This document shows, one piece after another, positions 40,222 to 64,000 of a stretch of DNA of 64,000 nucleotides. Numbering within the stretch: the first letter of the stretch is position 1; every line of letters begins with the position of its first letter. The position numbers and the translations under genes were made by a program. Source of the DNA: Planctomycetia bacterium (GTDB taxonomy: Bacteria > Planctomycetota > Phycisphaerae > UBA1845 > Fen-1342); assembly GCA_015709575.1 (NCBI GenBank), contig CP054190.1:1178001-1242000 (forward strand), given 5' to 3'. The notes under the pieces were generated by a model that saw nothing but the letters and a program-made list of their open reading frames with translations, searched no databases and was not told the DNA's origin.

Positions 40222-41288
40222 CGGGCGGCCGAGCCGGGCGGCGCCGACGGCGGCCCTGCGGCGGACTCGGCTTCGCGCAAGTCTGTCGCCTCGATCAGCT
40301 CGTCATCCTGAATCGCCCGGGCCAGGCGGCGGCCCAGCAACTGCCGTACGTCGCAGGGGCGAACCCCGCGCCCGGGCCGGCGGAACGCCAGATCCTCCGG
40401 GCGGAGGACGTGTCCCTCCGGCAGAAATCGTGCGGCTACGGCGCTGCGCCCGATCACCGGCTCACACGGCATCCGCCGCTTGACCTCGGTTCCCAGCATG
40501 CGCTCAACCCGCCGCACCGACCGCACCAACTCCGCGAATGCGGCGGGGTCAGCACTGGCGGCGTGATCCGGGCCATCGTCGCCGCAGTGCAGCGTCAGGT
40601 GTTTTTCAATCATGCAGGCCCCCAGCGCGACGGCCGCGGCGGCTGCGTCAGAGCCGAGCGAGTGATCGGAGAATCCGACCAGGCAATCGGGGAATTCGTC
40701 GCCGAGCACCGTGATCGCCCGAAGGTTCAGTTCGTTATCGGGGGGCGGGTAGGCGGATACGCAGTGCAGCAGCGTCAGCCGCGCAGCGCCGGACTGGCGC
40801 AGCGTGCGTACCGCGCAACGGACTTCGTGCAGTTCGCTGGCGCCGGTGCTCAGCACGATCGGCAAGCCGGTGCGCGCCGCGGCCGCCAGCAGCGGCGCGT
40901 GCGTCACCTCGCCGGAGCCGAGCTTGAGCAGCGGCAGCCCCAGTCGCAAGGCCTGGGCCAGGCTGGGTTCGTCGAACACCGTGGCAAAGACGCTCAGGCC
41001 GGCGGATCGGGCATGCTCGACAATGGTGAGATGATCCTGCTCACCCAGCCGCAGCGACTCGAGCATCCGCAACTCGTCGGCGCGATGCCGCCGACTGCAC
41101 AATTCGCCGGGGACGAAAAGTTGCAGCTTCACGGCGTCCGCGCCGGCGCGACGCGCTTCATCCACCAGGCGCATGGCCCGTGAGGCCGAGCCGTTGTGAT
41201 TGACGCCCAATTCCGCCACCACCAGGCAGCGCGAGGGTTCCTGGCCCGCGATCAGCTCGTGGAAGGACGAGCACCCGTGACCCACCAT
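40218..41288 (-). CDS. neuB: N-acetylneuraminate/legionaminate synthase (NeuB family)
   Basis: 356 residues from ATG 41288. NeuB TIM barrel: VVAELGVNHNGS, ADAVKLQLF, LGSGEVTHAPLL, VLSTGASELHEV, HCVSAYP, and FSDHSLGSDAAAAAVALGACMIEKHLT. The C-terminal 60 residues form an SAF (antifreeze-like) domain (RFLPEGHVLRPEDLAFRRPGRG). Condenses an N-acetylmannosamine-type sugar with phosphoenolpyruvate to a nine-carbon acid. The exact sugar (sialic or legionaminic type) is not determined. It overlaps the methyltransferase gene by 37 nt. Confidence 0.9.
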   Translation of the reverse strand: MVGHGCSSFHELIAGQEPSRCLVVAELGVNHNGSASRAMRLVDEARRAGADAVKLQLFVPGELCSRRHRADELRMLESLRLGEQDHLTIVEHARSAGLSVFATVFDEPSLAQALRLGLPLLKLGSGEVTHAPLLAAAARTGLPIVLSTGASELHEVRCAVRTLRQSGAARLTLLHCVSAYPPPDNELNLRAITVLGDEFPDCLVGFSDHSLGSDAAAAAVALGACMIEKHLTLHCGDDGPDHAASADPAAFAELVRSVRRVERMLGTEVKRRMPCEPVIGRSAVAARFLPEGHVLRPEDLAFRRPGRGVRPCDVRQLLGRRLARAIQDDELIEATDLREAESAAGPPSAPPGSAAR

Positions 41289-42028
41289 GCAAACCTCCGA
41301 TCGTTCCGAACGTCGCGGATCTCGCAGCGCTCGAGCCACACGATGGTCAGCCCGCTCGCGGCGCACAGCGCCGACACATCGTCGGCGCTCCAGAATGAAT
41401 AAATCATGCCTGCCAGGCCGGCCGGCGCTCCCGCACCCAGGCGAACCGTGGACGGCTCCATGACCTCGCTCGCAAAGTCGCGCAGCGAATCGTCGTCGGT
41501 TCGCCAATCCGCGATCACCGCGCCGCCGGGCCGGGTGACGCGCCGCAGTTCGCGCAGCGCTGCGGTCGTGGCCGCTCTGCCGCCCAGTTGGAACAGCGTG
41601 CCCCAAGAGAGCGCGACGTCCGCTGCAGCGTCCGGCAGCGGTTGCCGGTTCAACGGCGCGGCGTGCACTGTCACCTCGGCGCCGCAGCGCTTTGCAGCGG
41701 CGCATGTCAGCGCGGCCATCTGCGGATCGGCGTCGGTGGCGATGACGCGCCCGAAGCCCAGTTCGTGCAGCGCCAGCGCGTGGCGGCCACTGCCGCAACC
41801 CGCGTCGAGTGCGGTCGCGGCGCCGCGGGCGGCGGGCGGGATCAGTGCGCTGATTGCCCGCAGTGCGGCCTCACTGGGCCAGCGCCGACCGACCGCGCCG
41901 TTGCGTCCGCGCCAGTTGTTGAGCGGCGCCCCGGTGGCCAGCGTTTCGGCGGCCGGTTCAGCGGCGATTGCCGCCATCGTGCAGGTCGCGGCCGGCTTCG
42001 CCGCCTCGATTGCCGGGTTACTCGGCAT
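41252..42028 (-). CDS. SAM-dependent methyltransferase in the nonulosonic acid operon
   Basis: 258 residues from ATG 42028. Class I methyltransferase: motif I LDAGCGSGRHALALHELG, acidic residue in VIATDADPQ, then ADVALSWGTLFQL and LRRVTRPGGAVIADWRTDD. The N-terminal 60 residues are Ala-rich with no domain. Its start overlaps the end of neuA by 11 nt and its end overlaps neuB by 37 nt, so it is embedded in the operon and may methylate the nine-carbon sugar, its CMP form or a precursor. Confidence 0.8.
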   Translation of the reverse strand: MPSNPAIEAAKPAATCTMAAIAAEPAAETLATGAPLNNWRGRNGAVGRRWPSEAALRAISALIPPAARGAATALDAGCGSGRHALALHELGFGRVIATDADPQMAALTCAAAKRCGAEVTVHAAPLNRQPLPDAAADVALSWGTLFQLGGRAATTAALRELRRVTRPGGAVIADWRTDDDSLRDFASEVMEPSTVRLGAGAPAGLAGMIYSFWSADDVSALCAASGLTIVWLERCEIRDVRNDRRFAWWVTGARPSTS

Positions 42029-42680
42029 GCGCCACCGCCGCTTCGAGCAGAGCTTCGGCCGTCTGCATATCTTCCGGGGTGTCAATGTCCACGCTGCGCG
42101 AAGCGGGCATCGGGTACGCCAGCATGCGCTTTGTCGGGTGGTCGCGCAGGTAGTCGCCCAGGGGATAGACGTATACGGCCCCGTTGAGTCGGTAGAGGGT
42201 GCCTTGCGCAGGCAGCGTGCGGAACTCTCCGGTAGCGTGGATCGTGCCGCACCATTCCGATGGTGCGACCGGGGAGACTGTCGCGACCGCGCCGGCCGGG
42301 TGCCGCCGCCATAGTTCCAATGCGCCGCGGATGTCGGCGGCACTGCGCAGGGGCGACGTGGGTTGCAGCACCACCATCGCGTCATAGCGCTCGCCCAGCG
42401 CCAGCAGATGCTCCAGCAGAAAGCGATTGGCGTCGCGCGTGGGCGTGTTGTCGGCGGCCAGCCGCGCGGGACGCAGCACCGGGCAGGACACGCCATACTC
42501 CGCGGCGACCGCCGCGATGCGAGGGCAGTCGGTATTGACGTAGACCGCGTCCAGTGCGCCGGACTCCAGCGCGCTGCGGCAGGTGTACGAGATCAGCGGG
42601 CGACCGCCCAGCGGCGCGAGGTTCTTGTTCACGATGCGCCGTGACCCGCTCCGTGCGGGAATGATGCCGACGAATGTCAT
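42018..42680 (-). CDS. neuA: CMP-nonulosonic acid cytidylyltransferase (NeuA family)
   Basis: 220 residues from ATG 42680. Nucleotidyltransferase start IIPARSGSRRIVNKNLAPLGGRPLI, QPTSPLRSAADI with the phosphate-binding loop, and a conserved D-x-D near the end (SVDIDTPEDM). Activates a nine-carbon acid with CTP. The ATG overlaps the neuC stop (ATGA). Of the 225-residue length typical of NeuA; no C-terminal acetylhydrolase domain is attached. Confidence 0.92.
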   Translation of the reverse strand: MTFVGIIPARSGSRRIVNKNLAPLGGRPLISYTCRSALESGALDAVYVNTDCPRIAAVAAEYGVSCPVLRPARLAADNTPTRDANRFLLEHLLALGERYDAMVVLQPTSPLRSAADIRGALELWRRHPAGAVATVSPVAPSEWCGTIHATGEFRTLPAQGTLYRLNGAVYVYPLGDYLRDHPTKRMLAYPMPASRSVDIDTPEDMQTAEALLEAAVAHAE

Positions 42681-43948
42681 CGCGTGCCCCCCGACCCGCA
42701 TGTCGGTGCGCCCGCGGCGCGGTGCGTCCGGAGTTGTGTCGGCGGCCGGTCAGGTTCGTGTGGCGAATGCACGGCTGTCGCACCGGTGCAGTGGTCGACC
42801 AGCCTTTTTGAGAGCAGGCGCGGATCATCGGCGAAGCGGTGCAGCAGCGCGACGATCCGGTCCGCGGCGCCTCCGGGCCCGTATGGGCTGTCGTTCGCGG
42901 CGCTTTCACGAATTGCAATCGTCGTACGAATCGCCGTCCGCACATCCGCGGCGGTCGGCCTCTGCAGCGTCACAGTCGTCGTCGCGGTGGGACGTCCCTC
43001 TTGTCTCTCACCGACGATTACTGCCGGGCAGCCCAGCACGGGTGCCTCGATCACGCCGCTGGAGCTGTTGCCGACGTAGCAGGCGGCATGACGCAGCGCG
43101 GACAGATAGAGCGCCGGGGGAAGCGCGGCCAGCAGTGTTGCGTCCGACCGCGGCGCGGCCCAGCGTCGGATCGCGTCGTCTATCCGATCGCCTTCGGCGT
43201 CGCCGTTGGACAGCACGAACAGCTTGTGAAGATCGCTCAGCTCACCGAGCGCATCCAGCATCGCCCGCAGGTCCCTGTGCGCCTGTTCCGTCCGCAGCGT
43301 CACGGGCAGGAAGCTCGCGAGAAGAAATCGCTTTCCGGTCGCGGAGCCGCGCGGCCGGACTTCGGTCGGCAGTCCGGTCGCCGACACCAGCGCTTCAAAG
43401 GCGGCCGCCTGCTTCACGATTCCGTCCAGCGAAGGCAGGCCGACCACATGAATCCGCCACGCCTCCTCGCCCAGGGCGCGCAATCGCTCCGCCGCGAGTT
43501 CGTGGGATGCAAGATGCAGTTGCGCGAGCTTGGTCAGCGCGTTGCGGAGATTGGCGTCCTGGTTCGTGGCGACGTCCGTCTCGCCGCCGCCGAGGTGCGC
43601 GAGCGGCACACCCAGCATCGTCGCCGCGACGCCGGCCGCGAACGATTCGTAGCGATCCCCGGCAACGAGCACCCAGCGCGGGTTGATTCGCGCGATCACC
43701 TCAGCGCAACCGCAGACCCCGCGTCCGGTTGCCTGCGCGACGTGCAGCGGGGTATCAGCACCATCTAGGATGGGAACTCGTGCCGTGATGCCAAGGTCCG
43801 CTGCTTCGATCTCGCGAACCGTCGCGCCGTGACGTTCGCTGAGGTGCGTGCCGGTGACGAGCAATCGCGCATCTGCGCCGGCGGCGCAGACGACCGGTTC
43901 CACCAGCCGCCAATCCGCACGCGATCCCGTCACTACCAGAATGCTCAT
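42677..43948 (-). CDS. neuC: UDP-GlcNAc 2-epimerase, hydrolysing (NeuC type)
   Basis: 423 residues. GT-B fold epimerase: VTGSRADWRLVEPV at the N-terminus, VAGDRYESFAAGVAA, HLGGGETDVATNQDANLRNALTKLA, LPSLDGIV and YVGNSSSGVIEAPVLGCPAV. Hydrolyses UDP-GlcNAc (or a UDP-diacetyl-bacillosamine analogue) to the mannosamine product used by NeuB. A 40-residue tail after RFADDPRLLSKR is family-atypical. Coupled to neuA. Confidence 0.9.
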   Translation of the reverse strand: MSILVVTGSRADWRLVEPVVCAAGADARLLVTGTHLSERHGATVREIEAADLGITARVPILDGADTPLHVAQATGRGVCGCAEVIARINPRWVLVAGDRYESFAAGVAATMLGVPLAHLGGGETDVATNQDANLRNALTKLAQLHLASHELAAERLRALGEEAWRIHVVGLPSLDGIVKQAAAFEALVSATGLPTEVRPRGSATGKRFLLASFLPVTLRTEQAHRDLRAMLDALGELSDLHKLFVLSNGDAEGDRIDDAIRRWAAPRSDATLLAALPPALYLSALRHAACYVGNSSSGVIEAPVLGCPAVIVGERQEGRPTATTTVTLQRPTAADVRTAIRTTIAIRESAANDSPYGPGGAADRIVALLHRFADDPRLLSKRLVDHCTGATAVHSPHEPDRPPTQLRTHRAAGAPTCGSGGTR

Positions 43949-52224: not shown

Positions 52225-52260
52225 CACCGTCGCATTCGGCGATAGAGTTACCGAACTGAT

Positions 52261-52333
52261 TGCGGGGTAGAGCAGTTGGCAGCTCGTCGGGCTCATAACC
52301 CGGAGGTCGCAGGTTCGAGTCCTGCCCCCGCTA
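52261..52333 (+). tRNA. Initiator tRNA-fMet (CAU)
   Basis: 73 bases, folding as a full cloverleaf. Anticodon CAT at 52294-52296. Initiator hallmarks: three consecutive G-C pairs at the base of the anticodon stem (GGG/CCC), an A-T pair at position 11:24, and no base pair at position 1:72 (T opposite T, where most bacteria have C-A). T arm GCAGG-TTCGAGT-CCTGC. The CCA tail is not encoded. The 3' half (from 52293) is also the antisense end of the serine recombinase gene, marking the integration site. Confidence 0.95.
52293..52333. other. Probable left attachment site of the integrated element
   Basis: The 41 bases shared by the tRNA 3' half and the recombinase C-terminus are the likely core of the attachment site: integration here keeps the tRNA intact, using element sequence as its new 3' end. 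No second copy of this tRNA segment was found up to 64000, so the right site is outside the window. Confidence 0.6.
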
Positions 52334-53906
52334 TTCCGGCCGCCGCAACTTCATCGGTTGCGGCGGTCTCTTTTTGGACCACCCGCCCGTTCGGCAGGAC
52401 CACCATCGGCCCGATGACCTCGGCGATGAACCGGTTGACTTGGGCGGGAGACATCAGCCCAGCGAAGTTGGCCTTGGCCTCCAGGAACGCCTGCCGGCAG
52501 TCGGCCATCAGGTCGTCCATATCGGCGACCGCCTGGACGGCCACCGATTCGAGCGCCTGCCGAAGCCCTTCCCTCTTTTCCTCGTGCTCGGCAATCTGCC
52601 GTGAGATCGACCGCTTGGCGAGCGGCTCAATCTCCGGATCGACCAGGACACGGATCAGGCCGGCGAGCGTCTTATCCACTTCCGCAATCTCGGCCTTAAG
52701 CCGTGACGATTCGTTCCGGTTCGCATCGAGCGCTTCCCGCGACATGGCCGCGACCTCATCGAGCACGCCGTCCATGTCCTCAAACACGGCGCCCATCGCC
52801 GCCTGAATGCGCGCCAGGAGCTTGTCCTCGCGGACCGACGCCGCGTTGCCGCAGGCCTCCGGCCCGTGCGACTGCCGCCGGCCGCAGGCGTAGTAGCGGT
52901 ACGAGCCCTTGGCGTTGCTGCTCTTGCGGGTGTAGTACACGCCGCCGCAGCCGGCACAGAACAGGTGGCGGGTGAACGGCCTGACCTCCGCCGCCTCGCG
53001 CGGACGGTCAATCCGGTTCGCCGCAAGCTGGGCCTGCGCCCGCTCGAACGTCTCATCGTCGATGATCCTGAGCGACTCATCGCGGTTCACGACATGCCGG
53101 CTCTCATCGGTCCAGCGAGGGACACGATGCCCGGTGGCGCGATCGAGCTTGAAGCAGCGCCGCAGGTAGCGGACTTCGCCGACCAGCATCGAGTTGGTGA
53201 GGATGCTCCTGATCGTCCCGAATCCCCACGGCCCGCCGAGCCGCGTCGGAACGCCGCGCTCCCGCACGCGACGAGCGACTTCCTTGAGTCCGATCGACTC
53301 CGCCAGATAGGTCTGGAACACGAAGCGGACCGTCTCCGCCTCTTCGGGATGAATCGCGAGCCGCTTCTTTCCGTCATCGGTTTGGACAATGCGGTAGCCG
53401 TAGGGCGGAGGCCCGCCTGTCCAGCAGCCTTCCCTGTGTCGCTGGACCAGCCCCTCGCGGGTCCGCTCCGCGAGCACGCGGCTGTAGTCCGCCGCGACGA
53501 CGAGCTGCACGCCGCGGGCGAGGGCGTTCGTCCCTTCGGTGACGCTCACCACCTCGACGCCGTGCTGTTCAAGATCCTCAACGAGGACGTGCGTTTCGGC
53601 CGCACGGCCGAGACGATCGTATTTGTAGACGTAGAGACGCTTGATGCGGCCCGCTTCCGCTTCCTCCATGAGCCGCAGGAGTTCCGTGCGGCCGCCCTTT
53701 GTCCGGCCGGTTTTCGCCTGATCGATGAAGTGCTTGAGCGGCCTTCCCGCCGCACGTTCGCACGACTCGATCTGCACGGCGATGCTCGTGCCGTCGTCCT
53801 GGGCGTGACTGGAATAGCGGGCGTAGAGGGCGTCGTACTTCCGGCTATCGCCGTTCGCCGATCCGCCGCGCCCGTTGGTCGCATGCTGTCGGAGTGCCGT
53901 CACCAT
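52293..53906 (-). CDS. Large serine recombinase (integrase of the tRNA-linked element)
   Basis: 537 residues. Resolvase domain with catalytic Ser in YARYSSHAQ (32-33), then YKYDRLGRAAE and SVTEGTNA; a recombinase domain (ERTREGLVQRHREGCWTGGPPPYGY); a zinc ribbon (CAGCGGVYYTR...YACGRRQ); then a long coiled coil. The last residues GAGLEPATSGL are antisense tRNA, and the stop codon is built from the anticodon loop. ATG 53906 has GGAGG 8 bases upstream. Serine integrases usually avoid tRNA genes, so the target choice is notable. Confidence 0.92.
   Translation of the reverse strand: MVTALRQHATNGRGGSANGDSRKYDALYARYSSHAQDDGTSIAVQIESCERAAGRPLKHFIDQAKTGRTKGGRTELLRLMEEAEAGRIKRLYVYKYDRLGRAAETHVLVEDLEQHGVEVVSVTEGTNALARGVQLVVAADYSRVLAERTREGLVQRHREGCWTGGPPPYGYRIVQTDDGKKRLAIHPEEAETVRFVFQTYLAESIGLKEVARRVRERGVPTRLGGPWGFGTIRSILTNSMLVGEVRYLRRCFKLDRATGHRVPRWTDESRHVVNRDESLRIIDDETFERAQAQLAANRIDRPREAAEVRPFTRHLFCAGCGGVYYTRKSSNAKGSYRYYACGRRQSHGPEACGNAASVREDKLLARIQAAMGAVFEDMDGVLDEVAAMSREALDANRNESSRLKAEIAEVDKTLAGLIRVLVDPEIEPLAKRSISRQIAEHEEKREGLRQALESVAVQAVADMDDLMADCRQAFLEAKANFAGLMSPAQVNRFIAEVIGPMVVLPNGRVVQKETAATDEVAAAGIAGAGLEPATSGL
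52340..52377 (+). terminator. Rho-independent terminator of the initiator tRNA
   Basis: A perfect 10-bp stem (CCGCCGCAAC at 52340-52349 with GTTGCGGCGG at 52357-52366), 7-base loop, then TCTCTTTTTGG. It starts 7 bases after the tRNA and reads in its direction. It lies inside the recombinase coding sequence on the other strand. Confidence 0.85.
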
Positions 53907-54020
53907 CGTCCTTGCCTCCGTCGGAGTCGCCGGGATTCGACCGAATGGCGCGCTCGCGGTAGAGGGCCACCGCCCTTGCCGCGATGACGCGAACCAGCCA
54001 CCGCCTTGCGGCGGCGCGGT

Positions 54021-54047
54021 CCTGTATCACTATACGGTCCGCGTCAA
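54021..54047 (-). promoter_or_regulatory. Weak promoter candidate upstream of the recombinase
   Basis: On the minus strand TTGACG (54042-54047) and TACAGG (54021-54026) are 15 nt apart within the 260-bp gap between the recombinase and the J-domain gene. Spacing is short, so this is tentative. The gap holds no other supported gene. Confidence 0.25.
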
Positions 54048-54166
54048 AACCGGATGCGCTTTGCACGGGATTTTCCGTGTCCCTTGCGACGGTTGCAAGA
54101 CAGGATGGAACGGCCGGCCGCAATCATCGACTCCTGGCAGCATTTCCTCCGCACTCTCCGGCCCGA

Positions 54167-54940
54167 TCAGGCATGCTGTGTCTGCGCGAAATGCTCGCAG
54201 AGCCTCTGGTACGCCGCCGAGACTTCCTTGAAGCGCTGCACCGCCAGTTCGACCAGGTGCGGCTCGACGTTCCGGCCCGTGAGCCCGTCGGGGTGGTACT
54301 TGCGGCTGGCGATCCGGTAGGCTTTCTTGACCTGCTCCAGCGTGGCGCCGCGGTCGAGGCCGAGCAGGGCAAGGTCGGCGTCATGCGAGGCATCGTGCCG
54401 GCGGGCTTGCTTCCCCGCGCCCGCATCATCCTCCGGCATCCAGCGGTGCCGGTGATGGCCGTTTGCTGTCGCTCCCGCACCTGAAGGCTCGCTCCGCTTC
54501 CTTTCCTCCGCTTCCAAGCACGCCACCAATCGTTTGAACTCGCCGGAGGCTTGCTCGATGAAGAAGCGGGCTGCGGCCGCCGAGAAGCGGATGCCTGGCG
54601 GCGACGACAAGATCGCGTGAACCTCCGATGAGCCGTCCCTACCCGCGATCCCAAGGCCGACGACCAATGGCACCTCTTGCCAGTCGATGCAGGAAGCGCC
54701 GGACACGCGAGGCAACGACCAATTTCCGCGAGAGAATCCTGCGCCAACCGTGCCCTCCAATCCAGGGAACACCTTGAACCCGCGCTGCTCGAAGAAACGT
54801 ATCGCAGCTGCGAGCGATTCCTGTGGCAAGAGTCGCACCTTCGTTCCCTTTCCCCATCGCACGGCCACGCGCTTGCGACGCCACCAGTCCCATGCGAAGC
54901 CGGCCAATCCACCGATGATCGCGAGGATGATGATTTCCAT
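54167..54940 (-). CDS. N-terminally anchored membrane protein with C-terminal J domain
   Basis: 257 residues. A membrane helix at the very start (IIILAIIGGLAGFAWDWW), then an unknown 130-residue domain (LAAAIRFFEQRGFKVFPGLEGT, beta-alpha mix), a His/Arg-rich hinge and a J domain (LALLGLDRGATLEQVKKAYRIASRKYHPDGLTGRN) with intact HPD. It should recruit Hsp70 to the membrane. In this element it lies next to the TraG-like ATPase cluster, and a role in complex assembly is possible but unproven. The host J-domain gene at 7112 is unrelated in its N-terminal part. Confidence 0.78.
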   Translation of the reverse strand: MEIIILAIIGGLAGFAWDWWRRKRVAVRWGKGTKVRLLPQESLAAAIRFFEQRGFKVFPGLEGTVGAGFSRGNWSLPRVSGASCIDWQEVPLVVGLGIAGRDGSSEVHAILSSPPGIRFSAAAARFFIEQASGEFKRLVACLEAEERKRSEPSGAGATANGHHRHRWMPEDDAGAGKQARRHDASHDADLALLGLDRGATLEQVKKAYRIASRKYHPDGLTGRNVEPHLVELAVQRFKEVSAAYQRLCEHFAQTQHA

Positions 54941-54963
54941 GAGTTACCTGCCTTCCCTCGGTT

Positions 54964-55257
54964 TCAATCCCACTCCTGCTGGGGCGGTTCGGGTTCGCGT
55001 TCCGACTCCCGCTGGCGCTCCGCCTGCTTGAGGCGATCGTCCAGGATGGACGGCTGCTCATCCGGGTCGCGAGACTCACCCTGCTTCTCCTGCATGACTT
55101 CGCCGGGCGTTTTCGTGCCGTAGATGCCGTACACGGTCGGCTGTGCCACGTTCGACTCCGGGTGAAACGCCGCGGCCCGCAGTTCGGCGAGTCCCTGCCG
55201 GAACATCGCCGAGGCGTGCCCGGCCCCGATCTTGGGTGCGTTCTCTTCGCGTGCCAT
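54964..55257 (-). CDS. Small polar protein of the element
   Basis: 97 residues, highly charged, with no membrane helix. Starts AREENAPKIGAGHASAMFRQ and ends in a Glu/Arg/Pro-rich tail (QRESEREPEPPQQEWD). The central PTVYGIYGTKTPGEVMQEKQ is short and conserved-looking. Not recognised. It lies 23 bases upstream of the J-domain gene and 27 bases downstream of the membrane protein gene, on the same strand, so it is part of one operon. Confidence 0.6.
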   Translation of the reverse strand: MAREENAPKIGAGHASAMFRQGLAELRAAAFHPESNVAQPTVYGIYGTKTPGEVMQEKQGESRDPDEQPSILDDRLKQAERQRESEREPEPPQQEWD

Positions 55258-55284
55258 GATTCCGTTCTCCTATGAATGAGTGAG

Positions 55285-55884
55285 TTACCGACCGTCGCGC
55301 ATGCGGCGGAACGATTCCGCCGTGTCGCGCTGTTCAACGAATGCGTCGTGCAGGTCCATCGTGCGGCGGTGCTGGAGCGCCCCGCTCATCCCGGACGAGG
55401 CCGCGGCGCACACACCGGCCAGCGCCAGGTACGCCGCGAGCGGCACGCTCACGATCGCCACACAGAGGGCGATGCAGCCGACGTAGAGCGGCTCGATGAC
55501 CGTCTTGATCCGATGCTCCGGGCTGCGCCGCCAGACCTTCTGCAGGGTCGGAGCGCCATTGAAAAGCGTGTGCGGCTGCGGCCCGCCGCGCCTCACGCGC
55601 GCTTTCGTGCGGACGCGCGCCATGAGCAGCGCCAGCCAGTAGAGCAGCAGGAAGACGAGCATCGGACCGGCGGAGTGGCCTTGCCACAGCACCGGCCAGA
55701 ACAGGATGAGCACAAAGCCGGCCGCCGCCTGGAGGCCGAAGTAGCGCTGGCCGAACGAGTCCGATCGGCGCAGGAACACTTCGACCGTCACGCCGAAGGT
55801 GCGGGCGATGAAGAAGAGCACGCCGAGGAAGTTGTTGACGCCGGTCTTCGAGAAGAGCGGCTCGGGTTGTTTCTGTTCCCACAT
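55285..55884 (-). CDS. Membrane protein of the element
   Basis: 199 residues from ATG 55884, which has GGAGA upstream; ATG 55908 adds eight residues. Hydrophobic segments: VNNFLGVLFFIARTFGVTVEV, AAAGFVLILFWPVLWQ, GPMLVFLLLYWLALLMA, and CIALCVAIVSVPLAAYLALAGV near the end, so four passes. The C-terminal ALQHRRTMDLHDAFVEQRDTAE is helical and polar. Not recognised. Located just downstream of the TraG-like ATPase on the same strand, which suits a membrane anchor for that ATPase, whose own N-terminus lacks one. Confidence 0.68.
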   Translation of the reverse strand: MWEQKQPEPLFSKTGVNNFLGVLFFIARTFGVTVEVFLRRSDSFGQRYFGLQAAAGFVLILFWPVLWQGHSAGPMLVFLLLYWLALLMARVRTKARVRRGGPQPHTLFNGAPTLQKVWRRSPEHRIKTVIEPLYVGCIALCVAIVSVPLAAYLALAGVCAAASSGMSGALQHRRTMDLHDAFVEQRDTAESFRRMRDGR

Positions 55885-55969
55885 CGTCGAGTCTCCGTTG
55901 TTCCGCATGCGCCCAGTGACCGCGCCGGCGGTCCGGGCCGCCTTTCCGCTCTCTCACGTCACGCGGGCG

Positions 55970-57469
55970 CTAGGCCCTCTGGTTGAACTGCACCGGGAGC
56001 CAGGTCCGGCCCGATGCCTTGAACACTCTTCCGTTCTGAAACACGATTCCGTCCACGATCCAGCCGTTGTCCGGCCCGCCCGTGCGCAGCCGGGTGAACT
56101 CGCGCGGCTCGACTTCCGCCTCCATGACTTCCGAGAATCCGCCGCTCGTGGTGCCGTTCTCCCGCGCCCAGTCGAGGCCGAGCAGCGCGCTCACCTGGTC
56201 GTCCGCCGGGTGCGAGTGATTGCCGCTCGCACGATATTGCAGCGTCCGCCCGATGAGACGGGAGGCCCATTCGTTCGTCTGGGGATCGCTGTTGGCGTGA
56301 AACACCTTCAGCCCGCAGTTTCCGAAGATGGAGTCCGCTTCGGCGCGCCCCTTGTCGCCGCCGCCGAGCGCGGCGTACACGCCCGGCACTCCCTGGGTCA
56401 GTAAGGCGCAACCGACTCGGGAGGACCGGCAGGCGGCAAGGAAGGCGGCGTCGCGCGAACTGGCAAACGTCTGGAACTCGTCACACCACAAGAAGACCGC
56501 GCGACTCGCGGCATCAATCCGTCTTCCCTCCATGCAGCGCTGCCAGCAATACTTGAGCACGGCATTGGCGATGACCCCTGTTTCGCGGTAGACCTGCGTC
56601 GGCAACCCGCAGACGATCACCGCGCCGTTCTCGCAGTCGCCGGGGGTGAGCGTGGTATCCGTGCCGAAGAGTTCGCGAAGAACGCTGCGCTGCATGGGGT
56701 CCAACTGGGAAGTCAGACAGGAGACCACGACCGATCGCGTCTTCGGCGATAACGTGCAGAACTCGCACAGCACGTAGTCGGCTACCAGCGCGAAGTCCTT
56801 CTCCTGCGAACTGTTCTTCGTGCGCTTGTCCGCCTCCGTCAGCAGCTTGAAGCAGAACGACGAGCTGCGCCATTGCTCGGAGCGGACATCATCGAGCGAC
56901 TGCGGGGCCGAGATCACCGCGCGGTAGAGGGCGTCGATGGTCACCGTGCCGGTCGCCAGGATCAGCAGGTCAACGAAGTTCCGGATGAGTTGCTTTGTCG
57001 CGCGCCGCCAATATGCTTCGTCATCGCGCGCCCCGCCGCTGTCTCCCTGGCGGTCCGCGCACTCGAGGATCGCTTCGAGCAAGCCGACCACATTTTCGGC
57101 GGCGCCGACCGCTCCCTCCCGAGCCAGTTCGTACGACACGGGGTTGAACCGCCAGGGGCCGCCAGGGCGCATGACCCGCAGATCCGCGGTGCGCCCTGTC
57201 GCGGCACAGTATTCTTCCCAGCGAAACACCTCGTCGCTTTTCGCACAGCACACGAGCATCCCGGCCTTGGCGTTCCCGAGCAGCCCGAGCGCCAGGGCGC
57301 GCCCGCTGCCGGTCGATTTACCAGCACCACTTGCGCCAACCACCAGGGAGTTCTCCGTAGCCATCCTCGCGGTATACACATCTTCCGCCGACCACCGCAC
57401 CACGGGCACCGACAGCGCGTCCGCAGCCTGACCCGCATGTGACCGACGTTTCTTGAAGAGTCCAAGCAT
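55970..57469 (-). CDS. TraG/VirD4-like type IV coupling ATPase
   Basis: 499 residues. Walker A GASGAGKST (45-53), MLVCCAKSDEVFRWEEYC, a central helical all-alpha insert, and Walker B/TraM-type LWCDEFQTFASSRD followed by FLAACRSSRVGCALLTQG. This matches the TraG/TraD/VirD4 coupling-protein core that pumps DNA-protein complexes to a type IV secretion pore. The N-terminal transmembrane domain is absent; a four-pass protein is encoded right downstream. No relaxase or pore genes are visible in the window. A role in some other DNA-translocation process is possible. Confidence 0.85.
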   Translation of the reverse strand: MLGLFKKRRSHAGQAADALSVPVVRWSAEDVYTARMATENSLVVGASGAGKSTGSGRALALGLLGNAKAGMLVCCAKSDEVFRWEEYCAATGRTADLRVMRPGGPWRFNPVSYELAREGAVGAAENVVGLLEAILECADRQGDSGGARDDEAYWRRATKQLIRNFVDLLILATGTVTIDALYRAVISAPQSLDDVRSEQWRSSSFCFKLLTEADKRTKNSSQEKDFALVADYVLCEFCTLSPKTRSVVVSCLTSQLDPMQRSVLRELFGTDTTLTPGDCENGAVIVCGLPTQVYRETGVIANAVLKYCWQRCMEGRRIDAASRAVFLWCDEFQTFASSRDAAFLAACRSSRVGCALLTQGVPGVYAALGGGDKGRAEADSIFGNCGLKVFHANSDPQTNEWASRLIGRTLQYRASGNHSHPADDQVSALLGLDWARENGTTSGGFSEVMEAEVEPREFTRLRTGGPDNGWIVDGIVFQNGRVFKASGRTWLPVQFNQRA

Positions 57470-57484
57470 GGTGACGACCTGCCT

Positions 57485-57568
57485 TCAGTTCCGATTCAGC
57501 CTGTTGTCCGCGTCGGACTTCCAGATCACCGCGATGATGAACACGACGAATGTCGGGATGAGTGCCAT
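57485..57568 (-). CDS. 27-residue single-pass membrane peptide
   Basis: A 28-codon frame: MALIPTFVVFIIAVIWKSD then ADNRLNRN. It is preceded by AGGAG, 7 bases from the ATG, an excellent ribosome binding site. The first 17 residues form one hydrophobic helix and the rest is polar. It fits exactly between the ParB-like gene and the ATPase gene on the same strand (10 bases after the former, 15 before the latter). It resembles short membrane anchors or regulators encoded in secretion operons. Confidence 0.62.
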   Translation of the reverse strand: MALIPTFVVFIIAVIWKSDADNRLNRN

Positions 57569-57578
57569 ATCGAGTCTC

Positions 57579-58409
57579 CTACTTGCCGTTGCTTGAGATG
57601 ACCTTGATGACTTCCGCCAGTGGCCGCCCGTCCGCGCCCGCCGACCTGATCCGCTCCGCCAGGTCAGCGAGCCATGCGATGAGGCTCTCCACCGAAAGCG
57701 TCGGCGCCGACACCGAGACCGACCGTCCCTCACCGAGCGGGATGCTGACCCGCTCGCGCGGCGTGCGTGCCTTCCGAGTCGGCCGACGCGCCGATGCGCG
57801 CTGCGTTTCCAGTTCCTTGGCCCGCTGAATCACGTCGTCCCGAGTCAGGCCGCCGTTCACGGCCTGCTGGCAGAGCCGCTGCCGCTCCGCGGAGTCGGTG
57901 AGCTTGGCCAGTTCGTAGGCGGTGCTCATGCCCACCGCGCCCGAGGTCACCGCTGCCTGAACTTCTGCGGGAAGCACCGTGAGGGTGAGCAGCTTCGAGA
58001 TGCTCGCCGGGGACAGGCCGAGCTTGACCGCGACCTCGCGGGCGCACCATCCCGTTTCAGACATCAGCTTGTGGATCGCCGCGCCGCGTTCCATCGGAGA
58101 CAACCCCACGCGCTGGGCGTCCAGGACGAGCTGCCTGTGCAGCACATCGCCTTCGGAGAGGGCTTCCGACTCCACGATGACCGGCACTTCTGTCAGCCCG
58201 GCCTTGCGCGCCGCCCGAAGTCTGCGCTCGCCATCGAGGACGATGAGGGTGTCCCCCTCGCGGCGGACCAGCAGCGGCTGGAGAATGCCCGCCTCGCGGA
58301 TGCTCTGCGCCAGGCCGGCGAGTTCCTCCTCGCCGAACCCGGTGCGCTCGCGCACCTGCGGCCGGCAGACGAGGCGGTCGATGGGAACGCGGTCAATTCT
58401 GGTGGACAT
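57579..58409 (-). CDS. ParB/KorB-like DNA-binding protein
   Basis: 276 residues from ATG 58409. ParB N-terminal domain: IDRVPIDRLVCRPQVRE, AGLAQSIREAGILQPLLVRR and the CTP-pocket motif VLDGERRLRAARKAGL. A helix-turn-helix follows (TGWCAREVAVKLGLSPASISKLL). C-terminus (LSVESLIAWLADLAERIRSAG) may dimerise. No ParA is encoded in view, so it may act as a regulator or nucleation protein rather than in partition. Stop is 10 bases before the 27-residue peptide. Confidence 0.85.
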   Translation of the reverse strand: MSTRIDRVPIDRLVCRPQVRERTGFGEEELAGLAQSIREAGILQPLLVRREGDTLIVLDGERRLRAARKAGLTEVPVIVESEALSEGDVLHRQLVLDAQRVGLSPMERGAAIHKLMSETGWCAREVAVKLGLSPASISKLLTLTVLPAEVQAAVTSGAVGMSTAYELAKLTDSAERQRLCQQAVNGGLTRDDVIQRAKELETQRASARRPTRKARTPRERVSIPLGEGRSVSVSAPTLSVESLIAWLADLAERIRSAGADGRPLAEVIKVISSNGK

Positions 58410-58731
58410 CGCCCGCTCCTTTCGCGCGCTGCCGCAGTTCGGCCATTTCGATTTCGTCGAAGAGGTGCCGACTCTCGCGATCCTTGAGGGCCGATCGGCC
58501 CGTGAGGATTGCCCCGATGACGTAGAAGAGGTCATCGATCGGCAAGCCAGGCAGGAGGTCCAAGGGCGAACAAAGCAGTACGACCAGCCCAAACACCATC
58601 GCGTACTTGGTCAGCTCAAGGCCGACAGTGCGCAGGCGACTCGCCGGCAGGGCCAGGAGGATCAACATCGCCAGGAACAGCAGGGTGCTGCACCCGACGA
58701 ACACCTTGAGGAACGAGAAGAACTCTGCCAT
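58393..58731 (-). CDS. Small DUF1232-like membrane protein
   Basis: 112 residues from ATG 58731. Two hydrophobic segments (FFSFLKVFVGCSTLLFLAMLILLAL and YAMVFGLVVLLCSPLDLLPGLPIDDLFYVIGAI). The SPLDLLPGxPxDD pattern resembles the DUF1232 signature (SPIDLIPD...LDD). C-terminus is polar. It overlaps the ParB-like start by 17 bases, so the two are coupled. First gene of the minus-strand run. Confidence 0.68.
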   Translation of the reverse strand: MAEFFSFLKVFVGCSTLLFLAMLILLALPASRLRTVGLELTKYAMVFGLVVLLCSPLDLLPGLPIDDLFYVIGAILTGRSALKDRESRHLFDEIEMAELRQRAKGAGDVHQN

Positions 58732-58847
58732 GTATTGCTCCCTATGTCCGGCTGAGCGGCAAAGCCTGTTCGCACCTGCTGGGCCGTCAGACGTACGCTT
58801 CGGACTCAGACCCGTGCCCAGCACACCAAAGATCTGGCTTAACGCTC

Positions 58848-59597
58848 ATGGAAATGCTAAAACATGGGCCGGGCAGGTCCACGCACTCTGCCCGCCATTT
58901 GAAGGACACTTCGCATGCACTTGACGATCCTGTCGCTGGAGCCATCCAGGTGAGCCGCAAAGAAGAGCAATCCCGTCCTGGCCGAACAGTGATCGCCGAT
59001 GCCCAGGCGGTCGTTGCCTTCCGCGTGGGCAAGGGCTGGGCGCGTGAGGATCTTGCTCGAAAGGCACACCGATCGCTGAAGTCGATCGATCGCATCGAGG
59101 CGGGGCAGCCGGTCTTCCCCCGAACGCTTGAGGGAGTAGCCGCTGCGCTAAATGTTCCGTTGGAGAAGCTGATCGTGTCGGCTGACCGGGCTCACAACTC
59201 GGGACACGCAGCGTCGTGTGCGCACGCCGTCGATCTCGATAGTCTCGTACACGGACGGCGCAACGATGCGCTCGCGGTTGAGGTGCGGATTGTGGTGCCC
59301 AGTGATTCCAAGGTGCCTCCTCATCCAACGTCGATCATCAGCGGCCTGCGCGATGCAGCTGGCCTTAAGCATCCCATTCGCATCGTGTCGTCGGACATCT
59401 GTGCGCCGAGCATCGCCCCCTCGGGTGCCCTGATCATCACAGCGGTCATGATCCGATCCGATGCACGGGTCGTGTTCACCAAGCTCGTCGCTGGGCAACT
59501 GGACAGCCTCGACGTTCGTCTGTTTACAAGAACGAACGGCGGTTTTTTCTATCTCAGCACACGCGCATGGAATGCAAGGTCTGGCTATACTGACTGA
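58848..59597 (+). CDS. XRE-type HTH protein with C-terminal effector-associated-like module
   Basis: 249 residues; GTG 58950 is an alternative start, removing 34 residues. The HTH lies at about residues 45-95 (AFRVGKGWAREDLARKAHRSLKSIDRIEAG). The rest is an alpha/beta region; its end, SGALIITAVMIRSDARVVFT then KLVAGQLDSLDV, resembles the GS-strand / DAxxLhxAhxxGxLdxL module seen in effector-associated domains of bacterial conflict systems. The match is by eye only. It is divergent from the ParB operon, fitting a regulator of the element. Confidence 0.6.
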   Translation: MEMLKHGPGRSTHSARHLKDTSHALDDPVAGAIQVSRKEEQSRPGRTVIADAQAVVAFRVGKGWAREDLARKAHRSLKSIDRIEAGQPVFPRTLEGVAAALNVPLEKLIVSADRAHNSGHAASCAHAVDLDSLVHGRRNDALAVEVRIVVPSDSKVPPHPTSIISGLRDAAGLKHPIRIVSSDICAPSIAPSGALIITAVMIRSDARVVFTKLVAGQLDSLDVRLFTRTNGGFFYLSTRAWNARSGYTD

Positions 59598-59598
59598 A

Positions 59599-59928
59599 TC
59601 ACGCCAACATCTCCGCCAGCACGCTGCCCGGAACCCAGTTGCTCCCCTTAAGCTCGGCCTCCGTGCTGAATCCGACCATCCGGTACGAGCAGCCGATCCG
59701 GCGCGGGGCGGATAGCCGACGCCGGAGCCGATCATGCACGATCGCTTGCGCCTCTTCCGCGTCGGGACTCCCGAGTCGGAGTTCCCGCAGCGGCCCGCCG
59801 ACCCGGCCATAGCGGACGGTGACGACCCAGTCGCCAAGCAAGTCCCGGCCGACCGAGACTTCGTACCGGCGGTGATGGTTCAGCTCATCGCTGTGCGCTT
59901 CGAGCGCGATGGTCAGGAGGTCGAGCAC
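59599..59928 (-). CDS. WGR-domain-like protein
   Basis: 109 residues. Core RYEVSVGRDLLGDWVVTVRYGRVGG is like the WGR domain (WSV...WGRIG) found in poly(ADP-ribose) polymerases and standalone bacterial proteins, followed by helix EEAQAIVHDRLRRRLS and IGCSYRMVG. WGR domains can bind DNA ends or 5'-phosphates. ATG 59928 lies 16 bases inside the resolvase 3' end, so the two are translated together. Confidence 0.7.
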   Translation of the reverse strand: MLDLLTIALEAHSDELNHHRRYEVSVGRDLLGDWVVTVRYGRVGGPLRELRLGSPDAEEAQAIVHDRLRRRLSAPRRIGCSYRMVGFSTEAELKGSNWVPGSVLAEMLA

Positions 59929-60500
59929 GCGGCCTCCGTCGCTTCGCTTTCCCGGAGGTACTGGTAGAGCGTCTCTCGGCTGATCCCGAACTCGCGGGCG
60001 AGCCGGGCTTTCTTCTCGCCGACGGCGGCGCGGGCGCGGAGTTCCTGCACCCGCTCCGGCGACAGCGCCCGCTTCCGTCCCCGGTAGACGCCGCGCTGCT
60101 TGGCCAGCGCGATGCCCTCGCGCTGCCGTTCCTTGATGAGGTCGCGCTCGAACTGTGCGACGGCGCCGAGCACCGTCAGCATCAGGTTCGCCATCGGCGA
60201 CTCCTCGCCGGTGAAGAGCAGGTTCTCTTTGATGAACTGGACGCGGATGCCGCGCTTGGTCTGTTCCTGGACGATGCGTCGAAGGTCGTCCACGTTGCGG
60301 GCCAGGCGGTCCATGCTGTGGACGACAATCATGTCGCCTTCTCTGGCGTAGGCGACGAGCGCCTTCAGTTCGGGACGGTCAGTGTCTTTTCCGGAGGCCG
60401 CGTCGGTGAACACGCGGTCGAGTTGCACGCCTTCGAGTTGCCGCTCCGCGTTCTGATCGTACGAACTGACCCTGACGTACCCGATCCGTTGACCCTTCCC
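59913..60500 (-). CDS. Tn3-type resolvase, 5' end removed by transposon insertion
   Basis: The frame from 60500 reads GKGQRIGYVRVSSYDQN, the full catalytic N-terminus (Ser in VRVS), then QLDRVFTDAASGKD, VVHSMDRLARNVDDLRR, ESPMANLMLTVLGAVAQFE and a C-terminal HTH (VGEKKARLAREFGISRETLYQYL). But no start codon remains: a TGA overlaps the transposon end at 60504-60506, and the first usable GTG (60428) lies past the catalytic Ser. The gene probably lost only its first few codons. It may still be made if some alternative start exists. Confidence 0.82.
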   Translation of the reverse strand, partial: GKGQRIGYVRVSSYDQNAERQLEGVQLDRVFTDAASGKDTDRPELKALVAYAREGDMIVVHSMDRLARNVDDLRRIVQEQTKRGIRVQFIKENLLFTGEESPMANLMLTVLGAVAQFERDLIKERQREGIALAKQRGVYRGRKRALSPERVQELRARAAVGEKKARLAREFGISRETLYQYLRESEATEAACSTS

Positions 60501-60501
60501 C

Positions 60502-60525
60502 TGTCATAACTCGAAGTGCACTTCA
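60502..60525 (+). repeat. Left terminal inverted-repeat end of the tni transposon
   Basis: TGTCATAACTCGAAGTGCAC begins exactly where the resolvase frame is broken. Tn402/Tn5053-family ends start TGTCATTT-, so TGTCA fits. A second TGTCATACTCCGCC copy at 60557 may be an internal transposase-binding repeat. A possible 5-bp target duplication is TCCCC (60497-60501). A weak promoter for tniA (TTGCCA 60530, TAGTGT 60554) lies between. The matching right end is not in the window. Confidence 0.6.
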
Positions 60526-60637
60526 CAGATTGCCATTGATTTGTCTCGCTTTCTAGTGTCATACTCCGCCGCATAACCTGCCTCAGTCGGTTGCACTGGC
60601 CAGCAGATTATCGCAGTCCTATTCAGCAGCGGACCCC

Positions 60638-62272
60638 ATGACCGACATCGCGCTCATAGAGGAAAAGGCCTGGATCGAGGCGCGCCGCCGGGCGGAGCTT
60701 ATCCGACCGCTGGTAGAGATGACGCGGTGCCCCAGACGGATGGTGAGTGCCGCCGCCCAGGCACTGGGATTGTCTGAGCGGCAAGTGTATGACTTGATCA
60801 GGCGCTGCCGGCTGAGCGACGGGACGGTGTCGGCGCTGGTTCCGAAGATGTCCAGCGGCGGACGCGGCAAGTCGAGACTGAGCCGCGCCCGGGAGCAGGT
60901 GCTTCGACAGATTATCGATCAGGTGTACCTTACGGGCCAGCGCGTCACGCCGCAGGTGTTGATTCGGGAGGTCCGTCATCACTGCGCGAGAAACGGCATG
61001 CCCGCGCCGGCTGCAAGCACGATACGCCGACGGTTGAAGCACCTCAGTCCCGATGATCGGCGCAAACGTGGCGAGAGCGCCCAAGTCAAGCCCGCAGCCG
61101 GAATGACCCCGATCCCGCAATTCCCGCTTGACCTTTTGCAACTGGATCACACGAAGGTGGATGTCATCATTGTCGATCCTGTGGATCGCAAGCCGATCGG
61201 CAGGCCGTGGCTTAGCGTGGCCATCGACGTGCACAGCCGATGCATCGCCGGGATGCACCTGTCACTGGAAAGCCCTTCGGCCACGTCCGTTGGGCTGTGT
61301 CTGGTGCATGTCGCCACGGAGAAGACATCCTGGCTTGAAGGGCGTGGCATTGATGCCGAGTGGCCGATTGCCGGAAAGCCGCGAGCCATCGCCGTGGACA
61401 ACGGAGCCGAGTTCCACAGCGCCGCGTTTGAGCGCGGATGCGCGCAGCACGGCATCGCCATCCACTGGCGCCCGCCGGGTCAGCCGCATTTCGGGGGCAT
61501 TGTGGAGCGCGTGATCGGCACGCTGATGCAGCAGGTGCATGAGCTGCCGGGGACGACCTTCTCGAATCCGGCCACTCGCAGGGGGTACGACAGCGACGGC
61601 ACCGCCTGCCTGACGCTTCAGGAATTGGAGCATTGGCTCACGATTGCGATCGCTCGCATTTACCACCAGCGTTCGCACGCCGGGCTTGGCGGCGAGACGC
61701 CGATAGCGCGTTTCCGGGAGGGCATGCGGACGATGAAGCAAGAGGGGCGGAGCCTGCCGGTCGTGCAGAATGCACAGGCGTTCCTCATTGATTTCTTGCC
61801 GATTTACCGGCGCACGCTGCAACGCGCGGGAATCACGATTGACTACATCACCTACTACAGCAACGGCCTCAAGCCCTGGATCGCGCGCCGGTCGGAACTG
61901 GGCCCGCTGTTGGTGCGGCGCGATCCCAGGGATCTGAGCCGCGTCTACGTTCTGAACGACGAGACCGAAGGCTACCTGGAGGTGCCGTATCGCGATCTGG
62001 CGCGCCCGGCAGTGACGTTGTGGGAGCATCGGCTTGCCGTGCGGCGGCTGCGAGAGCAGAACCGGCATGCCATTGATGAGATGGCTCTGTTTCGCGCGAT
62101 CGAAGAGCTGCGCGCCATTGAGCGCCGTGCGGCGGCGACGACGAAGACCGCCCGTCGCAACCATGCGCGCCGGCAGCCTGCGGAGCAACCGGTCCCCGCC
62201 CGGAAAACGCCCGTGGCCCCGGTGACCGCGCCGGTCGCCGCGTCGCCCTTTGCCGAGATAGAGGAATGGTGA
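60638..62272 (+). CDS. tniA: Transposase TniA (DDE family)
   Basis: 544 residues. N-terminal helix-turn-helix region (MVSAAAQALGLSERQVYDLIRR), then an RNase H-like integrase core with Asp170 in LLQLDHTKVD, Asp254 in AVDNGAEFHS and Glu290 in GGIVERVIG, forming the DDE triad. C-terminal beta-barrel (LVRRDPRDLSRVYVLNDET) and a basic tail. Cuts and joins the transposon ends with TniB. All catalytic residues are present and the length matches Tn5053 TniA, so it should be active. Confidence 0.95.
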   Translation: MTDIALIEEKAWIEARRRAELIRPLVEMTRCPRRMVSAAAQALGLSERQVYDLIRRCRLSDGTVSALVPKMSSGGRGKSRLSRAREQVLRQIIDQVYLTGQRVTPQVLIREVRHHCARNGMPAPAASTIRRRLKHLSPDDRRKRGESAQVKPAAGMTPIPQFPLDLLQLDHTKVDVIIVDPVDRKPIGRPWLSVAIDVHSRCIAGMHLSLESPSATSVGLCLVHVATEKTSWLEGRGIDAEWPIAGKPRAIAVDNGAEFHSAAFERGCAQHGIAIHWRPPGQPHFGGIVERVIGTLMQQVHELPGTTFSNPATRRGYDSDGTACLTLQELEHWLTIAIARIYHQRSHAGLGGETPIARFREGMRTMKQEGRSLPVVQNAQAFLIDFLPIYRRTLQRAGITIDYITYYSNGLKPWIARRSELGPLLVRRDPRDLSRVYVLNDETEGYLEVPYRDLARPAVTLWEHRLAVRRLREQNRHAIDEMALFRAIEELRAIERRAAATTKTARRNHARRQPAEQPVPARKTPVAPVTAPVAASPFAEIEEW

Positions 62273-63177
62273 TCGCCGGCGACGGCCTCTCCCACTTGCT
62301 TCCGTCGGCGCGGGAGATCGCCGCGCTGCCGGCGGACGAGCGATTGAACAGGCTGCCGCTCCATCACTGGATCGGTTATCCCGCCGCCCAGGCGGCCGTG
62401 GCGAAGCTTGAAGGGATGATCGCCCAGCCGCCCGCTCTGCGGCCGGCCAACCTTCTCATCGTGGGGCCAAGCAACAACGGCAAGACGATGATCGCGGAGC
62501 GTTGCCGGCGCCTGCATCCGGCCCGCACGTCCGTCGATGGCGAGCACCAGGTCATCCCGGTGCTCGTCATGCAGATGCCGCCGGCGCCATCGGCCCGACG
62601 CTTCTATAGCGCCCTGCTGGCCGCCCTGGGGGCGCCGCTATGGGCCAACGGTTCCATGGACCTTCGCGAGCAGATGACCTGTCGGATCATGCGCAAGGTC
62701 GGCGTGCGGCTCCTCATCATCGACGAGCTGCACAACATACTGGCCGGGCGCCCCGGTCAGGTGCGCGAGTGCCAGAATCTCCTGCGGTTCCTCGGCAACG
62801 AGCTGCGCATCCCGATCGCCGGCCTCGGCACGAAGGAAGCCTACCTCGCCATTCGTTCCGACGACCAGCTGGAGAACCGCTTCGAGCCGTTCCTGCTTCC
62901 GCGCTGGACAGACGGCGCAGAACTGGCCAGGTTGCTGATGAGCTTCGAGGCGATCCTGCCGCTTAAGGAGCCGTCCAACCTGGCGTCGCCCGAACTGCGG
63001 ACGCCGATACTGCAACGTTCCGAAGGCACGATCGGCGAGATGTCAGCGCTGCTGGTTGCGGCCACCCGGGCAGCCCTGGAGCGGGGTTGCGAGCGCATCG
63101 ACCTGGATCTCCTGGCGGCGGCTGACTACCTGCCGCCAACGGAACGGCGGCGCCAGTTCGAAGCGTCCCTGCAATGA
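62266..63177 (+). CDS. tniB: Transposition ATPase TniB
   Basis: 303 residues. The ATG overlaps the tniA end by 7 bases. AAA+ ATPase: Walker A VGPSNNGKTM (66-75), Walker B LLIIDELHNIL, sensor NLLRFLGNELRIPIAGLGT and the arginine-rich end. It works like MuB/TnsC: loading at target DNA and recruiting TniA. Complete and of normal length. Confidence 0.94.
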   Translation: MVIAGDGLSHLLPSAREIAALPADERLNRLPLHHWIGYPAAQAAVAKLEGMIAQPPALRPANLLIVGPSNNGKTMIAERCRRLHPARTSVDGEHQVIPVLVMQMPPAPSARRFYSALLAALGAPLWANGSMDLREQMTCRIMRKVGVRLLIIDELHNILAGRPGQVRECQNLLRFLGNELRIPIAGLGTKEAYLAIRSDDQLENRFEPFLLPRWTDGAELARLLMSFEAILPLKEPSNLASPELRTPILQRSEGTIGEMSALLVAATRAALERGCERIDLDLLAAADYLPPTERRRQFEASLQ

Positions 63178-63557
63178 CCGCGCCGACGGATAGCTACCCG
63201 ATCGATCTTCAGCCGCCGGCGCCGCCGGCGATACGCTGGCCGCTGCATCCCCCGCCGTACCGTCTGGAGTTGCTTAACGAATGGATCGCGCGACTCGCGC
63301 AAGACTACGGCGTCACGGCCACGCTCTTCTGCCGTCACGTGCTCTCCGTGACGCCGCCCTTGCCTGATACGATCCCCGATCACGCACAACGGACGCTGGC
63401 GATGGGAGCCGGCATCGAGCTCGACTGCGTGCGGCGGATGACGCTTGCAGGGATGATGCGGGAGGTCATGGCGGAGGTTGAGCGGACGTGCAAGACGAAC
63501 CCGCAGGCGGTACATGCGTTCACTCGGAAACTGCGGCCGGCGGCACCGCAGGCATGA
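63174..63557 (+). pseudogene. tniQ: Truncated TniQ (N-terminal third)
   Basis: 127 residues, ATG overlapping the tniB stop (ATGA). The N-terminal TniQ pattern is present: WPLHPPPYRLELLNEWIARLA, HAQRTLAMGAGIELDCVRRMTL. TniQ of the family is about 400 residues with a zinc-finger region. Right after the stop, in the next frame (63554-63625), RALRWIEAGQYCPLLRC resembles the family's RQYCPLC finger region, as if a frameshift followed by deletion broke the gene. TniQ guides target choice, so this copy may move poorly unless helped in trans. Confidence 0.68.
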
Positions 63558-63687
63558 CTGCCCGCGCTTTGAGGTGGATCGAGGCCGGACAATACTGCCC
63601 ACTTCTGCGGTGTTCTTCCGCACGTTAACGGTTCTTTCAGTCTTTCCCAGTACAGTGCGGCTCCATCATAACTAGATGGAGTTCATT

Positions 63688-64000
63688 ATGCACCCTCGCC
63701 GCCTCCTACCCCTGTGTCTGATCCTCTTTGTGCTGTGCATGCTCCCGCTATCCCAGGCCGCTGCCTTCAGCGCGTTCATTTCAAATGCGGGCTCCAATAC
63801 CGTATCAGTGATCGACACCGGCACCAACTCTGTCACTGCGACCATTTCAGGCGGCGACACGCCTTACGGCGTGGCCGTCAGCCCTGACGGCGGGACTGTG
63901 TACGTCACCAACCACGGAGACGATAGCGTGTCAGTCATCAGTGCGGCCACAAACTCGGTATCCGCCACAATCACGCTGGCATCCGGTGCCCATCCCGTAG
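63688..64000 (+). CDS. YVTN beta-propeller secreted protein (partial, 3' end outside)
   Basis: The frame starts at ATG 63688, preceded by GGAG 6 bases upstream (ATG 63676 is in frame but lacks a site). Signal peptide ([21 protein letters not shown]), then [40 protein letters not shown] and [17 protein letters not shown]: the YVTN repeat of six- or seven-bladed propellers. It continues past 64000. The first bases around 63600-63690 are AT-richer than the tni genes. Likely cargo or the next host gene. Confidence 0.78.

Follow-up and report, generated by a model that had tools for sequence, protein, structure and literature searches.

Initiator tRNA, recombinase and hairpin at the locus

The window, by which we mean the whole stretch of 64,000 nucleotides that was analysed, holds a single tRNA gene, a tRNA-Met(CAT) called by ARAGORN at 52260-52334. 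Settled by hand, the mature gene occupies 52261-52333 of the forward strand, with an acceptor stem formed by 52261-52267 and 52326-52332, and in the whole genome (3.89 Mb, one contig) it is the only full-length match to the initiator tRNA. A recombinase frame of 537 aa (C-terminus ...AAGIAGAGLEPATSGL and stop), which ends in GAGLEPATSGL, runs antisense to the 3' half of this tRNA and takes its TGA stop from the complement of TCA at 52293-52295, in the anticodon loop. We read the features of the locus as follows.

52261-52333, +: host initiator tRNA (CAT), with T1:T72 and A73 at 52333; left half of the target site (ARAGORN call and relatives' tRNAs)
52314-52318, +: TTCGA of the T-loop, at a distance of 17 nt ahead of CTA; putative attB half-site motif for the zinc ribbon, by the rule of PMC3783163
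52331-52333, +: CTA common to the tRNA end and the element right ends; proposed crossover, core CT or TA
52293-53906, -: large serine recombinase (LSR) with Resolvase, Recombinase and zinc ribbon domains; last 12 codons and stop from the host tRNA in antisense
52293-52331, -: recombinase tail ..AGAGLEPATSGL and stop, encoded by the host tRNA
52334-52380, +: left end of the element, terminator hairpin (52340-52349/52357-52366) plus T-run (52371-52375); replaces the earlier downstream region of the tRNA
52334-64000, no strand: element interior with genes for a DnaJ-domain protein, a TraG/D-like protein, ParB, a resolvase and TniA-like and TniB transposition proteins; right end outside the window

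The hairpin has perfect 10-bp arms, then TCTCTTTTT; the folding energy of the stretch is -25.3 kcal/mol, that of shuffles -12.3 (z -5.5), and the arms encode recombinase residues 514-523 on the opposite strand. When the arms of different elements were aligned by hand, with the loop held constant, 5 of 10 pairs were altered on both sides, and such two-sided changes filled 14 cells against 4.8 in shuffles (0 of 500 shuffles gave as many). Judged from this covariation, the hairpin is kept across elements despite sequence change. An earlier note on this DNA had described the overlap of tRNA, recombinase and hairpin, with a stop codon made from the anticodon loop; both are real. Its statement that three functions constrain the same bases holds only in part: tRNA and terminator each overlap the recombinase, but they are adjacent to one another, so that any base serves two functions.

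PF00239, PF07508 and PF13408 score above cut-off in this order (Resolvase, Recombinase, zinc ribbon), the make-up of an LSR. Among solved sequences, the closest matches, of weak similarity, come from phage-type serine integrases, YokA among them. AlphaFold, run with four sequences, gave an uninformative model (pTM 0.28). A close recombinase is present in 12 of 150 related genomes, the window's own counted. In eight relatives (G043, G016, G061, G046, G146, G048, G328, G169), the recombinases are 46-83% identical, end on tRNA-fMet in the same frame and finish with GAGLEPATSGL or close variants; that of G048 has an internal stop. The relatives with names are Planctomycetota, among them one Phycisphaeraceae. 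A plasmid search gave no match, and viral contigs yielded only LSRs of 25-30% identity.

Two further gene groups of the window were recorded. A resolvase, TniA-like transposase, TniB and a further ORF (59913-63557) form a Tn5053-like unit inside the element, and at 40218-43948 on the reverse strand lie adjacent putative NeuB-, NeuA- and NeuC-like genes (nonulosonic acid synthesis), recognised by eye.

Host tRNA, attachment site and element ends

The 3' half of tRNA-fMet comes in types that belong to host families: CCTCGAGG in f4, CTGG/CCAG in f7, CAGG/CCTG in f1, mostly TTCAAATCC in f10, GCGGGTTCGAATCCCGC in f17, and CCGAAGG with an encoded CCA in f9. Each occupied tRNA carries the type of its own host family (f1, f4, f7, f9, f10 and f17), whereas the recombinases cross families: the L052 recombinase, from host family f1, shares 83% identity with L051 from family f7 but 77% with the window's, itself from f1, and L082, from f10, shares 83% with the window's. 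The tRNA thus belongs to the host, and element sequence is found only past CTA; a tRNA 3' end donated by the element, as proposed, is not supported. Moreover, tRNAs 97-100% identical to this one, the T-T included, are found in dozens of genomes without such a recombinase after the tRNA; the T-T is therefore native to the clade and does not come from the element, as had been suggested. An identical tRNA and downstream hairpin in relatives without the recombinase had been named as evidence against an element-derived overlap, and the outcome is split: the tRNA is present there, the hairpin is not. That the terminator hairpin is the element's is supported.

At five loci (L037, L038, L040, L056, L061), CTA is the exact point at which element homology sets in, and the DNA to its left is unrelated and not tRNA; Rfam found nothing in these flanks. 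The left flanks of L056 and L061 have a 52-bp block in common, though they adjoin different recombinase subfamilies. With this block as query, and then a consensus, a right-end motif was found in 23 of 249 genomes, and it nearly always runs up to CTA. What follows it is the recombinase gene (G044, G014, G015), another LSR gene (G011, G020) or GTTGACC...GGTTAACG, and this last sequence also stands immediately after tRNA-fMet elsewhere, where the alignment holds from the first base on. Right-end junctions, one copy in the window's own genome included, continue in register into sequences that directly follow tRNA-fMet in other genomes. A reading of GTTGACC... as native host flank was rejected, since each genome has it twice behind right ends as well and, in several, LSRs lie 3-6 kb inside it; it is probably the left end of another element, which leaves the junction position unaffected. 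In G044 and G014, the right end joined to the recombinase appears attP-like, while some other junctions (L037, L038, L040) could represent secondary sites, or copies that have decayed, instead of attP.

The T-loop may explain how the site is recognised. Of 25 right-end copies, 19 have TTCGA and 5 have TTTGA at 22 nt before CTA, whereas in the tRNA TTCGA stands 17 nt before it. This 5-bp shift concerns the left half-site only; in the right half-site no symmetric motif was found. In serine integrases, the zinc-ribbon motif of attP is shifted by 5 bp relative to attB, lying farther from the core in attP (PMC3783163). As far as such spacing can tell, the 5-bp difference is a fit to what the LSR model predicts for attP and attB, and we infer that the zinc ribbon of the recombinase reads TTCGA of the T-loop.

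We therefore consider it very likely (probability about 0.86) that the locus is the attL junction of an element whose own LSR inserted it at the 3' end of the host initiator tRNA gene; the serine recombinase element at tRNA-fMet that leaves the tRNA whole, as first described, is supported. The crossover would fall at CTA, tRNA nucleotides 71-73; the host would keep its whole tRNA and the element would bring only the hairpin and recombinase side, its hairpin serving the tRNA as terminator and substituting for the displaced one. With the attachment site lying inside the recombinase gene, it is the host tRNA, in antisense, that provides the last ~12 codons and the stop. The element would presumably excise as a circle, and excision would replace these codons. 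The sequences examined contained neither an excised circle nor an empty isogenic site.

The far end is less precisely placed. The window's genome has two right ends, one on the minus strand and inverted (C1:1306626) and one on the plus strand and direct (C1:1313638). The latter, outside the window, is a candidate that would close an element of ~83 kb; GC falls from 67.7% to 63.5% over 83 kb, and the drop ends near it. The inverted copy, together with IS-like DNA after the plus right end, points to later rearrangement of this element, and the exact right-end partner is uncertain; conservation of the genes downstream of the tRNA was insufficient to place the far end. In G016, the tRNA, the recombinase, a right end (1785063), the next left end and another right end (1837159) follow one another on one strand, an order that reads as a tandem array.

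As a side observation, the right end is a conserved sequence of ~60 nt, TCGAAAAAGTCTCT..CGAGAC..TTTTCGA..GTTCCCTCTA (loci L156-L185; in the window's genome, G000, C1:1306626-1306685 on the minus and C1:1313578-1313638 on the plus strand). Two right ends per genome are frequent, which suggests that LSR elements of several types are arrayed in tandem at tRNA-fMet, much as in SCC.

The recombinase tail and other explanations

Because the gene runs through the crossover, the tail of the recombinase depends on the DNA past it. By sequence comparison, the C-terminus is tRNA-encoded in attL and different at attP-like junctions (AAGIVRGR and stop in L038; AAGIGGTTLFSKQMSRAS... / AAGIGGTTLFSKQMSRASRDLF... 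in L061), and the tail predicted for our recombinase on joining its own inverted right end is AAGIERTALSSKKS... Integration might thus swap the tail, the tRNA-encoded version tuning or locking the integrated state and the circle having another C-terminus, an idea compatible with the attL explanation. In Mx8-type integrases, a change of tail tunes or locks the integrated state. The predominance of frames that stop inside the tRNA (23 against 3 reading through) also favors such a switch. However, the three frames used across tRNA types give tails unrelated to one another, and thus there is no conservation of a peptide as such. On the attP side, the frame is open in 23 of 24 cases against 20 and 21 for the other two, hardly a difference, so that conservation of a coding tail there is weak; and the tail may be inert. 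We regard the switch as possible, though doubtful. Selection for GAGLEPATSGL itself as a tail peptide is not supported, given that other tRNAs give other frames and peptides; the fMet cases use one common frame, itself among the frames that stop inside the tRNA.

A different explanation is a classic tRNA island, in which the crossover lies in the anticodon loop and the gene is restored by a second tRNA 3' half that the element brings with it. Half tRNA-fMet copies, starting in the anticodon loop at CTCATAACC, are indeed common in the clade, and in two cases (L054, L084) a copy of the recombinase lies behind such a half. Yet the 3' half of the tRNA tracks the host and not the element, no displaced half tRNA-fMet is present in the window's genome, and those halves that were examined are parts of elements with a tyrosine integrase, so we rejected an anticodon-loop crossover and hold the classic island to be highly improbable here. 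A tyrosine integrase lies beside an intact tRNA-fMet at L071 and in G342; in G342, its gene (8237-9430) lies next to the intact tRNA, and an older serine recombinase stands behind the displaced half. Tyrosine integrases of the clade use the anticodon loop of the same tRNA-fMet, and displacement as in G342 explains L084 and probably L054. The G342 element (L102, 1401-9653 of G342 C15) also has DNA-methylase-like cargo; it split tRNA-fMet at the anticodon loop and moved the 3' half away along with the older recombinase.

That the gene is a fixed, immobile relic whose overlap with the tRNA is chance read-through is equally improbable: the own-genome right ends are inverted or IS-flanked and the close copy of the recombinase is single in this genome (two further LSRs lie elsewhere), but its 537-aa frame is open with a highly conserved N-terminal catalytic region, the same junction occurs in many families with independent flanks, and there is the GC drop over 83 kb.

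Occurrence among serine recombinases and comparison with known systems

A PF07508 profile search of 244 planctomycetote genomes and 18 relatives showed that the attL arrangement at tRNA-fMet has counterparts at other tRNAs. Among 125 distinct complete planctomycetote LSR frames, 23 stop inside a tRNA (~1/5, kinship not corrected), all in antisense and entering the tRNA by its 3' end, none in sense; the tRNAs are Pro (8), Met (7), Asn (4), Gln (2), Ala (1) and Arg (1). Three more LSRs read through a whole tRNA (Pro, Pro and Ser). In a small control of nine other genomes (Bacillota and one Geobacteraceae), the count was 1 of 30 LSRs. One case is a second LSR of the window's genome (L210; G000 C1:2353078, minus), which ends ..SKSRGDWIRTSDLLDPNQAL and stop, antisense to tRNA-Pro(TGG). 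The overlap of tRNA and recombinase is not due to chance, as it recurs across different LSR subfamilies and six tRNA types. Separately, a 38% identical recombinase (L060; G114 C79) ends ..WRQGELNP and stop, antisense to tRNA-Ala(GGC), here too with a strong hairpin after it.

As ~1/5 of the sampled planctomycetote LSR genes end inside a tRNA, searches for split tRNAs would miss such islands. The T-loop spacing would offer a simple rule by which one enzyme class could reach many tRNA genes, and the host-encoded tail a natural case of a protein end set by the place where its gene is inserted. It is tempting, though on present evidence rather unlikely, to see here a recurrent planctomycete class of serine recombinases that reads the universal T-loop with its zinc ribbon, inserts at tRNA 3' ends, has one protein form when integrated and another when free, and is helped by the host-encoded tail to hold the integrated state.

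SCC elements also use serine recombinases at the 3' end of a housekeeping gene, rlmH, and form tandem arrays. The present element would resemble them in its apparent tandem arrays; it differs in target (tRNA-fMet instead of rlmH) and presumably in recombinase, which in SCC-type cassettes is ccr. An island related to SCC is described in PMC10581047. A classic tRNA island of the Islander type would be expected to have a tyrosine integrase and a displaced tRNA fragment at its far end, in contrast to the serine recombinase domains and the lack of a half tRNA-fMet in this genome. With LSRs of the A118, Bxb1 and phiC31 type (PMC3783163), the recombinase has in common the three domains and the attP motif 5 bp farther from the core; it differs in targeting an initiator tRNA at its 3' end and in having a gene whose own 3' end spans the attachment site. 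According to a survey of actinobacterial elements, in its passage on this subject, serine recombinases rarely integrate into tRNA genes; its examples are phiRSM1 (tRNA-Ser 3' end) and the AICEs of mycobacteria (tRNA-Leu), where a serine recombinase is likewise found at a tRNA gene; these involve other tRNAs and other hosts, and that passage makes no mention of an antisense tail overlap (PMC3218068). In the Mx8 and SSV integrases, the gene also crosses an attachment site at a tRNA and integration alters the protein, but these enzymes are of the tyrosine class and their elements bring along a piece of the tRNA, unlike the serine recombinase and intact host tRNA described here (PMC4383910). Integration-dependent immunity of mycobacteriophage BPs likewise has attP inside a gene whose C-terminus is rewritten by integration; there, the rewritten protein is the repressor and its function was tested (PMC4557955). 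Our searches of the open-licence literature did not turn up a paper on such a combination. The parts have precedents, and what looks new is their combination, the host-encoded tail and the frequency of the arrangement in the phylum.
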